A stretch of 64,000 nucleotides of DNA from the NCBI RefSeq assembly GCF_002844595.1, contig NZ_PJNW01000002.1:434001-498000 (forward strand). Reading direction: 5' to 3'. The notes under the pieces were generated by a model. It saw only the letters and a program-made list of their open reading frames with translations. It did not search any database and was not told the origin of the DNA. Source of the DNA: Pleomorphomonas diazotrophica (lineage in GTDB: Bacteria; Pseudomonadota; Alphaproteobacteria; Rhizobiales; Pleomorphomonadaceae). Positions 48,043 through 49,589 of the stretch are shown piece after piece. A program made the position numbers and the translations under genes. Within the stretch, counting starts at the first letter, position 1, and each line of letters starts with the position of its first letter.

Positions 48043-48546
48043 TCAGTGTACCATGCCGGGCATGGCCGCCATCGGGTCGGCGCCGGTCAACAGCGTCGGG
48101 TCGAGCATGCCGAAGATCATCGCCACATGGGCGACGATCAGGAACAGCGCCACGAAGCCGGCGTGCAGGCCGAGCCTTGCCTCGGGGCGGCGATCCTTCC
48201 AGAGAAGGCCGAGATCGATCAGGGCGATGCCGCCGAGCGGGATGACGCCGGCAAGATAGAATCCGACGGCGATCACGTCCGCCGGGCCGCGCCAGGCGCC
48301 GCCGCTGGTCAGCGGCACCACGGCGGTGAAGAACAGATAGAGGAACACGCCCAGGAAATAGATGCCGGCGATCGATCCGGCGATCCGGCTCACCTGCCGC
48401 ACCGCGCCGTCGAGGCGGCGCGTGTAGAGCAGGTAGAGCTCGGCGATGGCGATGGTCTCGGCGAGAATCACCGGGACCGCCATGAAGATGATGAGGTTCC
48501 ACGGCTGGTTGGCGGCCAGCAGTTCCATGTAGTGGGTCATGGGCAT
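48043..48546 (-). CDS. Small integral membrane protein (DUF6803-like)
   Basis: A 167-residue protein with four or five hydrophobic helices (WNLIIFMAVPVILAETIAIAELYLLY; IAGSIAGIYFLGVFLYLFFTAVV; DVIAVGFYLAGVIPLGGIALIDLGLL; GFVALFLIVAHVAMIFGML in pieces). Its C-terminus is Met-rich (MAAMPGMVH). It resembles proteins labelled permease/DUF6803; no function is established. GGAGA stands 9 bases before ATG 48546. The gene lies 83 bases downstream of a His/Met/Cys-rich secreted protein on the same strand, so a shared role in metal handling is plausible but unproven. Confidence 0.75.
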   Translation of the reverse strand: MPMTHYMELLAANQPWNLIIFMAVPVILAETIAIAELYLLYTRRLDGAVRQVSRIAGSIAGIYFLGVFLYLFFTAVVPLTSGGAWRGPADVIAVGFYLAGVIPLGGIALIDLGLLWKDRRPEARLGLHAGFVALFLIVAHVAMIFGMLDPTLLTGADPMAAMPGMVH

Positions 48547-48629
48547 GATCGTCTGTCTCCGTGCGGCAGGCGCGGCGCTCCGGCCGGCGGCTGCGGCAAT
48601 GCTGAATGATGTGTTCGTTCGGAGGGCGA

Positions 48630-49028
48630 TCAGGCGCGGGGCGGCGGCGTCGGCGGCGCCGCGGACATGGCAGACAGGCGCTTGGCAACAGACGGCGCGC
48701 CGGCGGAGAACTCGGCCGTAAAGTGCGGCGCCGCGACGGCGGCGTTGAACAGGCCGGCGCAGGCGGCAGGGCAGGTGCATCCGGCGAGCTTGGCATGACT
48801 GTGACCGGTCTGGTCGCTGTCGGCGCAGGTGTTGACGTCAGCAGAAGCAAGCCAGGCCACGGCACCGTGGGCTGCGGCAACCGGTGCAGGCGTGGCAGTT
48901 GGTTGCTGCGCCGTCGCCTGGACTGAGGTCGCCATCGGATGTCCCATGCTGCCATGCTCATGCGCGGAGGCCGCCGACATCAAGGCCAGCGTGAGTAGCG
49001 CGAGGAAGGCGAGGAGCCGGCGGATCAT
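48630..49028 (-). CDS. Secreted His/Met/Cys-rich protein, possible metal binder
   Basis: A 132-residue protein with a clear signal peptide (MIRRLLAFLALLTLALMSA, cleavage likely after ASA). The mature part begins HEHGSMGHPM, a dense His/Met cluster, has an Ala/Pro/Thr-rich spacer, then a cysteine/histidine cluster (NTCADSDQTGHSHAKLAGCTCPAACAG) and a Pro-rich end. The composition recalls the copper-linked CopL/DUF2946 group, but I cannot prove membership. The neighbouring membrane protein downstream may be its partner. Expression control is not visible. Confidence 0.7.
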   Translation of the reverse strand: MIRRLLAFLALLTLALMSAASAHEHGSMGHPMATSVQATAQQPTATPAPVAAAHGAVAWLASADVNTCADSDQTGHSHAKLAGCTCPAACAGLFNAAVAAPHFTAEFSAGAPSVAKRLSAMSAAPPTPPPRA

Positions 49029-49115
49029 GCCATCATAATGCTTGAGTGACGAGTGCAGGATTATTGACGGCGGCGGGACCCACCGTCAACCACGGGAAAA
49101 TGCGGCAGGCCCTCG

Positions 49116-49589
49116 TCAGTGCTTGTGGCCGTAGACTTCCGCCGGATCGAAGCGGCGCTCGCCGCCGACCTGTTCGAGCCGCACCGGACCCTCCGCCGCC
49201 TTCTGGCCGAGCGGCGCGCGCCGGTAGAAGCAGGACACCTGTCCGGTGTGGCAGGTGGCGCCCGCGCCTTCAACCCGCACGCGCAGTACCAGCGCGTCCT
49301 GGTCGCAGTCGGTGAGCAACTCCACCACCTTCTGCACGTTGCCCGAGGTGGCGCCCTTGTGCCAGAGTTCGCCGCGCGACCGGCTCCAGTACCAGCCTTC
49401 GCCGGTTTCGATGGTCAGCGCCAGGCTCTCGGCGTTCATGTAGGCGACCATCAGCACCTGGCCGCTGTCGGCGTCGACGGTGACGCAGGCGATCGTACCA
49501 TCCGGTCCGAAGCGCGGGGTCAGCACGTCGCCGGCCTCGAGCGCGGCCTTGTCGCCGGCGGGCGGGAACAGTTTGGTCTCGGACGTCAT
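49116..49589 (-). CDS. hisI: Phosphoribosyl-AMP cyclohydrolase
   Basis: Third step of histidine synthesis: opens the purine ring of phosphoribosyl-AMP. The 157-residue monofunctional form (no fused HisE) has the conserved [33 protein letters not shown], the metal-binding [11 protein letters not shown], and the zinc cysteines in [14 protein letters not shown]. It follows folE by 7 bases on the same strand; the folE-hisI pairing is common in rhizobia. The other his genes are outside the window. Confidence 0.96.

Follow-up and report, generated by a model that had tools for sequence, protein, structure and literature searches.

We propose, with a probability of roughly 70%, that two adjacent genes of Pleomorphomonas diazotrophica form a copper-response unit, in which a CutF-like leader, acting as a nascent chain, controls the production of the DUF6803 protein encoded behind it. 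The unit lies on the minus strand of the window (the whole stretch of 64,000 nucleotides that was analysed), and consists of a gene for a probably secreted leader of 132 amino acids (48630-49028) followed by the DUF6803 gene (48043-48546). Its architecture, the fixed distance between the cysteine and proline motifs of the leader, a family-wide RNA stem, and the copper neighbourhoods of some loci are supported by computation. The copper link for the pair, which an earlier note on this DNA had drawn from composition and adjacency, is supported beyond composition. The features of the locus are as follows.

49116-49589: hisI; PRA-CH match (Pfam)
49060-49089, minus strand: promoter-like site TTGACG-18-AATAAT, in the 87 nt separating hisI and the leader gene; consensus match only
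48630-49028, minus strand: CutF-like leader gene, 132 amino acids; open reading frame, published CutF-like rules (PMC9973294, PMC8456105) and 23-leader alignment
48963-49028, minus strand: putative signal peptide, leader residues 1-22, SAASA/HEHG; hydrophobic segment and AxA-type end, by eye
48759-48779, minus strand: Cys motif CTCPAAC, leader residues 84-90 (CxxxC is CPAAC, residues 86-90); C84 in at least 90% of 23 leaders
48633-48656, minus strand: C-terminal PPTPPPRA, leader residues 125-132; P129 and P130 invariant in the alignment
48620-48632, minus strand: 5' arm of the RNA stem, starting with the leader stop codon UGA; folding and arm tests
48563-48598, minus strand: inner hairpin of the intergenic RNA, ends approximate; consensus fold of 7 Pleomorphomonas sequences
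48546-48561, minus strand: 3' arm of the RNA stem, from the Shine-Dalgarno site GGAG (48557-48560) to the A of the DUF6803 start codon; folding and arm tests
48043-48546, minus strand: DUF6803 membrane protein, 167 amino acids; PF20617, 242.5 bits
48046-48108, minus strand: Met/His-rich tail, DUF6803 residues 147-167; family-wide feature

The leader protein and its conserved parts

Both genes were confirmed at the positions given in the earlier note, as open reading frames on the minus strand. The leader begins with MIRRLLAFLALLTLALMSAASA, read by eye as a hydrophobic N-terminus with a SAASA end, followed by the HEHGSMGH start and, further on, the CTCPAAC cluster that the note had described for the secreted protein. 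A gap of 83 nt separates it from the DUF6803 gene on the same strand. A 245-aa open reading frame for gene 2, reaching 48780, was rejected as having an over-extended start, the real start being at 48546. The host genome has one detectable copy each of the leader and of DUF6803. One promoter-like site was found upstream of the leader, against a mean of 0.0 in shuffled sequences; TTGAC is present in all five of the aligned Pleomorphomonas loci, with ATA at the -10 position.

With 132 residues, the leader is below the CutF-like limit of 150, and it has the CxxxC motif, the PP in the last 15 residues and the same-strand downstream gene by which such leaders are recognised. No Pfam family matched it at E <= 0.01 (the best E-value was 0.076, below the cut-off of that family). 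It does not match PF11162 (DUF2946), which one of the 23 leaders matches at E 0.0026, and the CXXC and C-terminal RAPP of the CruR type are absent from it, their place being taken by CxxxC and TPPPRA. The sole NCBIfam family matched by the leaders was CopL (NF033807), found with 8 of the 23 at E <= 0.01 (best 1.8e-5); the window leader scored 19.9 bits (E 9.1e-4) and did not reach the curated cut-off of 40 bits.

We aligned the window leader with 22 others, which are 13-52% identical to it. Only P129 and P130 are invariant among the 23 leaders, and C84 and P125 are found in at least 90% of them. Five Pleomorphomonas leaders that were compared share the greater part of the putative signal peptide, together with HEHG, CPAAC and PPTPPPR; the HEHG reads HEHC in L007 and is not general among the 23. 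As judged from this alignment, the conserved parts of the leader are the Cys motif, already seen in the earlier note, and the C-terminal Pro-Pro, of which the note made no mention, with HEHGSMGH kept only in part. Between the window leader and that of L003 (130 codons), 54, 45 and 67 differences fall on codon positions 1, 2 and 3, respectively. The corresponding numbers for DUF6803 in the Pleomorphomonas comparison are 8, 2 and 38, mostly at position 3. By this measure the leader body evolves almost freely. Measured in 29 of 44 leaders, the stretch between the end of the last Cys motif and the final PP spans 36-46 residues (median 39, SD 2.4), and the total length of the same 29 leaders is 107-136 (SD 9.9). 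The window leader has 38 residues between the two, and the leaders of the CC type (those measured among L084-L134) have exactly 39 in 16 of 16 cases, 13 of which come from one genus. The L010 leader combines a CTSHC motif with a C-terminal PELRPPRL.

These observations bear on the role of gene 1 in the earlier note, which had seen in the pair an uncharacterised copper-type metal-handling system; gene 1 would then be a stable periplasmic metal chaperone or sink, partnering a DUF6803 transporter. The putative signal peptide, the His/Met/Cys content and the adjacency of the genes agree with such a role, and CutF itself was first interpreted as a possible chaperone (PMC8456105). A chaperone would, however, hardly be expected to keep only its Cys and Pro-Pro positions, with a fixed distance between them, to change nearly equally at the three codon positions, and to be followed by a stem at its stop codon; moreover, CutF is described as acting only in cis and as being degraded after export (PMC9973294). 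The metal-handling pair thus holds as far as co-occurrence and the copper neighbours in other phyla are concerned, but not for gene 1 as a handling protein, a function that we consider very unlikely. A leader that regulates the gene behind it is the reading we prefer.

DUF6803 and its genomic neighbourhoods

The product of gene 2 matches PF20617 with 242.5 bits (gathering cut-off 27) over profile positions 1-160 of 162, which bears out the earlier description of it as DUF6803-like. Its AlphaFold2 model (mean pLDDT 82.9) has four hydrophobic helical stretches, the third of them broken in two, so that the 4-5 helices counted previously were a fair estimate. In an alignment of 64 of the 80 loci and the window, 36 columns are invariant in 65 sequences, and the invariant residues include H5, Y6, M7, M22, E30, E36, D90, H128, H140, M143 and M147. 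Relatives in most of the phyla sampled are 55-69% identical to the window protein. On sequence comparison, DUF6803 is patchy in its occurrence but highly conserved. The Met-rich end already pointed out, DPMAAMPGMVH in the window, has its counterpart throughout the family: 70 of 75 distinct tails contain at least two Met/His, and M+H make up 24% of the tail versus 6.5% of the body. The mean K+R versus D+E content is 3.7/0.5 in the first loop, 1.0/1.2 in the second and 2.1/2.7 in the third. The first loop is clearly of the cytoplasmic type, which would place both ends of the protein outside; the third loop gives no clean signal.

Structural comparisons were less informative. Foldseek with the model returned no match at E <= 0.001 (best 0.7), and heme binding by DUF6803 was dropped as a candidate function, since the rows for STEAP1, cytochrome bd and cytochrome b561 were all weaker than E 0.001. 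VIA-align found generic four-helix bundles with a best Z of 10.5, with CcmF, CcmC and cytochrome b in that range; for helical bundles, a Z below about 13 may reflect no more than a shared arrangement. Searching PDB chains with the sequence profile gave none at E <= 1. Such weak matches imply that the fold tells nothing firm. In our literature search no paper named DUF6803 or PF20617; the supplementary CutF-like neighbour lists of PMC9973294 were outside that search.

The earlier note had named a lack of co-occurrence in other genomes as a refutation of its reading; the two genes were found to co-occur across Proteobacteria. We used the best 80 of 164 candidate loci encoding a DUF6803 relative, 77 of which were eligible (L008, L020 and L036 are too near a contig end). 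A leader was called when a short same-strand open reading frame with a hydrophobic segment ended at most 300 nt upstream of DUF6803, and had a Cys motif or at least five His/Cys, plus a PP within its last 15 residues. This rule identified a leader in 24 of the 77 loci, compared to 7 of 521 control frames, which were other open frames of the same loci, 200 aa or longer, rather than curated genes. In three of the 24 (L021, L039 and L067) the protein is of another, His-containing type and its gene is separated from DUF6803 by about 30 nt, and the leader of L012 was missed by the rule, as its stop-to-stop frame exceeds 200 aa, and was added to the later sets. By record titles, 34 of the 77 loci are proteobacterial: 22 with a leader (21 by the rule, and L012) and 12 without, 8 of these 12 being from Nitrosomonadales or Methyloglobulus. 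Among the other eligible loci, 40 of 43 have no CutF-like leader. DUF6803 therefore does not need the leader. In a second set, from a family search of further genomes, a leader was present in 26 of 40 loci (5 of the 26 repeat the first set): all 8 from the window's genus, 13 of 24 from the genus g147, and 5 of 8 from the family of G246. Weak or broken matches (L087, L118-L123) and L088-L092 were not used.

Among the best 80 of 164 loci, the closest named records are from Pleomorphomonas species, with DUF6803 90-97% identical, and the titles cover Pseudomonadota, Bacillota, Cyanobacteria, Chloroflexota, Coriobacteriales, Spirochaetes and Patescibacteria (MAG labels as given). In a sample of 60 genomes, DUF6803 was found in 9 of 14 from the window's genus, counting the window's own genome, and in none of the 46 others; in a phylum sample, it was above the cut-off in 5 of 398. 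We considered plasmid spread as a cause of this patchy distribution and rejected it, DUF6803 being on only 1 of 72,556 plasmid records. No leader was found on plasmid records, though leaders are too variable for this search to exclude one.

Some loci have arrangements of their own. Three genomes of the genus g147 (G504, G670 and G675; loci L103-L105 and L124-L127) carry two or three DUF6803 copies, and the four extra copies examined (L124-L127) stand behind other small open reading frames and have no leader. In four records of the Patescibacteria group and one other bacterium (L018, L021, L039, L067 and L073), a small membrane protein is encoded directly upstream of DUF6803; in four of the five, about 30 nt lie between the two genes. 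Some of these proteins have a His/Met-rich loop and three have a C-terminal SPP, so they are possibly a different type of leader; inspection by eye revealed no convincing stem in these five loci.

Copper genes were found beside DUF6803 in a minority of the loci, including loci of other phyla, most loci having none. Neighbours were identified with Pfam on one or two members per kind, and by blastp for the rest. In raw counts, a CopA-like P-type ATPase is near DUF6803 in four loci (L057, L061, L063 and L079, the last of which also has a leader), and a multicopper oxidase in seven (L033, L081 and five Nitrosomonadales). These are the two kinds of neighbour that the earlier note had suggested looking for. 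L053, L057, L075 and L077 encode DsbD_2 proteins that include HMA and cupredoxin-like parts, although a number of the part matches are below the Pfam cut-off; in L053, L075 and L077 the DsbD_2 gene ends 27-29 nt before DUF6803.

It is conceivable that the same leader switch serves another metal, such as nickel, cobalt, zinc or silver. The window leader has His-rich stretches, and His-only CutF-like clusters precede HupE/UreJ genes (PMC9973294). By contrast, the Cys-type CutF-like leaders described in the same source mostly precede copper genes, and DUF6803 itself has a Met-rich tail and is accompanied in some loci by copper ATPases or multicopper oxidases. Another metal is accordingly improbable in our view, and copper is retained as the likely ligand.

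Two further kinds of gene occur directly behind DUF6803. One encodes a small His/Met/Cys-rich membrane protein (MNCCNN...GHM...LCCGAP) and was seen in three Bacillota loci (L057:5534-5860, L060:1201-1500 and L061:5598-5933); the L057 copy, when scanned, had no Pfam match. The other encodes lipoproteins with a PCYCGC motif (PF13798, function unknown), and occurs in L028, L053, L055, L066, L074, L075, L077 and L033, i.e. in Bacillus-type loci and one Anaerolineales MAG, thus linking two uncharacterised families. The PCYCGC proteins were not counted as copper evidence, as the literature passage on them assigns them no function.

An RNA stem over the DUF6803 start

In the window, UGAUCGCCCUCCG, beginning at the leader stop codon, pairs with CGGAGACAGACGAUCA, which contains the Shine-Dalgarno site GGAG and has the first base of the start codon, A, as its last. 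The consensus fold of seven Pleomorphomonas sequences has 25 pairs, 4 of them changed on both sides, and a covariation term of 0.03; a term so close to zero means that within Pleomorphomonas the stem is conserved, not covarying. Across genera the arm sequences vary and yet match each other, as in L012 (GAGCUUUUC/GAAAAGCUC), L065 (GAUUCUCC/GGAGAAUC) and L050 (GACACGGU/ACCGUGUC).

An initial folding test, which included the coding flanks and used mononucleotide shuffles, gave z-values from -3.8 to +1.4; the window, at 0.4, was not more stable than expected by chance. Given these mixed values, the arms were examined alone, by comparing own with swapped pairs of arms. Own pairs were better in 23 loci (0 of 100000 permutations were as good), and still so after thinning to 16 loci (44 of 100000). 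The same held for another 21 loci (79 of 100000) and, when longer arms were used and each group was represented by one locus, for 24 loci (0 of 100000). From the last two tests we dropped L093 and L095-L098, whose arms are identical to those of L003-L007. Variation in GC content between loci alone favours own arms, and for this reason the stop-codon arm was also compared with stretches from the same leader. This control gave a Fisher p of 4e-5 for 21 thinned loci (each fraction floored at 0.001), with 5 of the 21 at 0.05 or better. The value for the window was 0.13, i.e. 13% of the stretches of its own leader pair equally with the 3' arm.

The stop-to-start RNA was also folded against dinucleotide shuffles. 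Outside a low-GC group, 20 of 30 loci were at z <= -1.64 and 25 of 30 had at least five closing pairs; for 22 control intergenic stretches the numbers were 3 and 4, respectively. The remaining 10 loci missed z -1.64, and L007, L070, L079, L086 and L100 were without closing pairs. For the window alone we obtained z -1.76 (12 of 200 shuffles) and z -2.07 (4 of 100). The five loci folded beside the window in the former run had been chosen as strong-looking, and the set of 30 is the unselected version. The stem is therefore weakly significant in the window alone, and supported for the loci outside the low-GC group when these are taken as a set. In the low-GC group (13 loci of g147, and L130), own arms were no better than swapped ones (26314 of 100000), and 4 of 14 loci reached z -1.64. 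In most of these loci the Pro-Pro codons (CCUCCA-like) are themselves the anti-Shine-Dalgarno sequence, so that here the pairing may follow from the codons alone. In L084, L085, L101-L110 and L113, the Pro-Pro codons (CCU-CCA and similar) pair with the DUF6803 Shine-Dalgarno site, and a ribosome paused at the prolines would thus occupy the anti-Shine-Dalgarno sequence.

A freely evolving body, Cys and Pro-Pro motifs kept at a near-fixed distance, and RNA hiding the start of DUF6803 together make up an anatomy of the CutF type. Judged from these traits, the leader is most likely a regulatory leader of this type rather than a metal-handling protein.

Proposed mechanism and comparison with known leader systems

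How could such a leader control DUF6803? In R. capsulatus, CutF has a C69xxHC73 motif and a C-terminal PEPEGPPPRL, and C73 and the PPP at 114-116 give a spacing of 41 on the scale used here (PMC8456105). The oxidase gene behind a stem-loop is translated only if CutF itself is translated and Sec-exported, in cis; its CxxxC and Pro-rich end are required as well, copper lowers CutF export, and the tail alone caused no strong stalling in the published tests (PMC9973294).

By analogy, the leader described here would be exported during its own translation, and its Cys motif, some 38 residues before the last Pro-Pro, would from chain length already be outside the membrane as PPTPPPRA is decoded. Copper bound to the Cys motif may retain the chain and lengthen a pause at the Pro codons. 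The usual footprint of a ribosome extends about 16 nt to its front edge. Assuming a pause with P129 in the P site, in analogy to toeprints on RAPP peptides (PMC12992588), the front edge would be at about 48628, inside the 5' arm. The paused ribosome would open the stem at the stop codon and make both the Shine-Dalgarno site of gene 2 and its start codon accessible. DUF6803 would then be made, as a four-helix inner-membrane protein with conserved His/Met and an extracytoplasmic Met/His tail, and might bind copper(I) at the membrane and pass it on. From these findings we infer that copper is the ligand and that the ribosome pauses, as well as the sign of the response and what DUF6803 does; the sign (copper switching DUF6803 on) is carried over from CutF, and CruR has the opposite one.

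CruR, the other studied case, provides the main alternative. There, 45 residues separate CXXC from RAPP, regulation proceeds via Rho termination, copper switches expression off and the export signal is dispensable (PMC9426467). If the present leader worked likewise, copper would relieve an arrest, Rho would end transcription between the genes, and DUF6803 would be made under copper scarcity, for uptake or delivery to an oxidase. The cytochrome c and CcmE/CcmF genes near DUF6803 in loci of the Bacillus and Neobacillus types would suit such a function. Against this, the leader has CxxxC and PPTPPPRA rather than CXXC and RAPP, a stem over the ribosome-binding site is the arrangement of CutF (PMC9973294), and the copper ATPases near some DUF6803 loci suggest detoxification. 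A CruR-like switch thus seems unlikely, if less so than the other alternatives, and a CutF-like one remains our preferred explanation. It is tempting to speculate further that DUF6803 represents a new class of copper proteins in the membrane, namely compact four-helix transporters or relays for Cu(I) that carry a Met/His tail and are patchy in their distribution. Proteobacteria would have placed this protein under a CutF-type switch, the stem of which starts from the stop codon of the leader or, in one genus of low GC content, from the Pro-Pro codons (CCU-CCA). This wider proposal is a tentative one.

A family of unknown function would in this way gain a testable role in copper handling, and an apparent new target would join the small set of nascent-chain metal sensors. 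The leaders also form a natural set, in which the Cys motif, the Pro-Pro end, the spacing of these two and the RNA stem are the principal constants, and which could be used to explore how a metal bound outside the membrane acts on a pause within the ribosome.

Among known systems, gene 2 is a full-length member of DUF6803 (PF20617), a family without a described function and without a PDB chain matching its profile. CopL of Xanthomonas and Stenotrophomonas is reported to act in cis on the gene behind it (PMC9973294), and is the only NCBIfam family matched by the leaders; the window protein, however, is below the cut-off, and the gene behind it is not copA. With CruR of Bordetella pertussis (DUF2946), our leader shares a leader reading frame with a Cys motif and a C-terminal Pro-Pro at conserved spacing, in front of copper genes. 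It differs from CruR in both motifs and in the missing DUF2946 match, and CruR acts by Rho termination, with copper as the off signal and no need for export. The likeness is greatest to CutF, encoded in cutFOG of R. capsulatus: a small protein, Sec-exported in CutF and putatively so here, with CxxxC and a Pro-rich end (PEPEGPPPRL in CutF, PPTPPPRA here), about 40 residues from Cys to Pro (41 and 38, respectively), a metal gene behind it on the same strand, and a stem over the downstream Shine-Dalgarno site. This comparison concerns motifs and layout, and the targets differ, a multicopper oxidase in the case of CutF and DUF6803 here. The leader thus appears to belong to the known CutF kind, with DUF6803 as an apparently new target.
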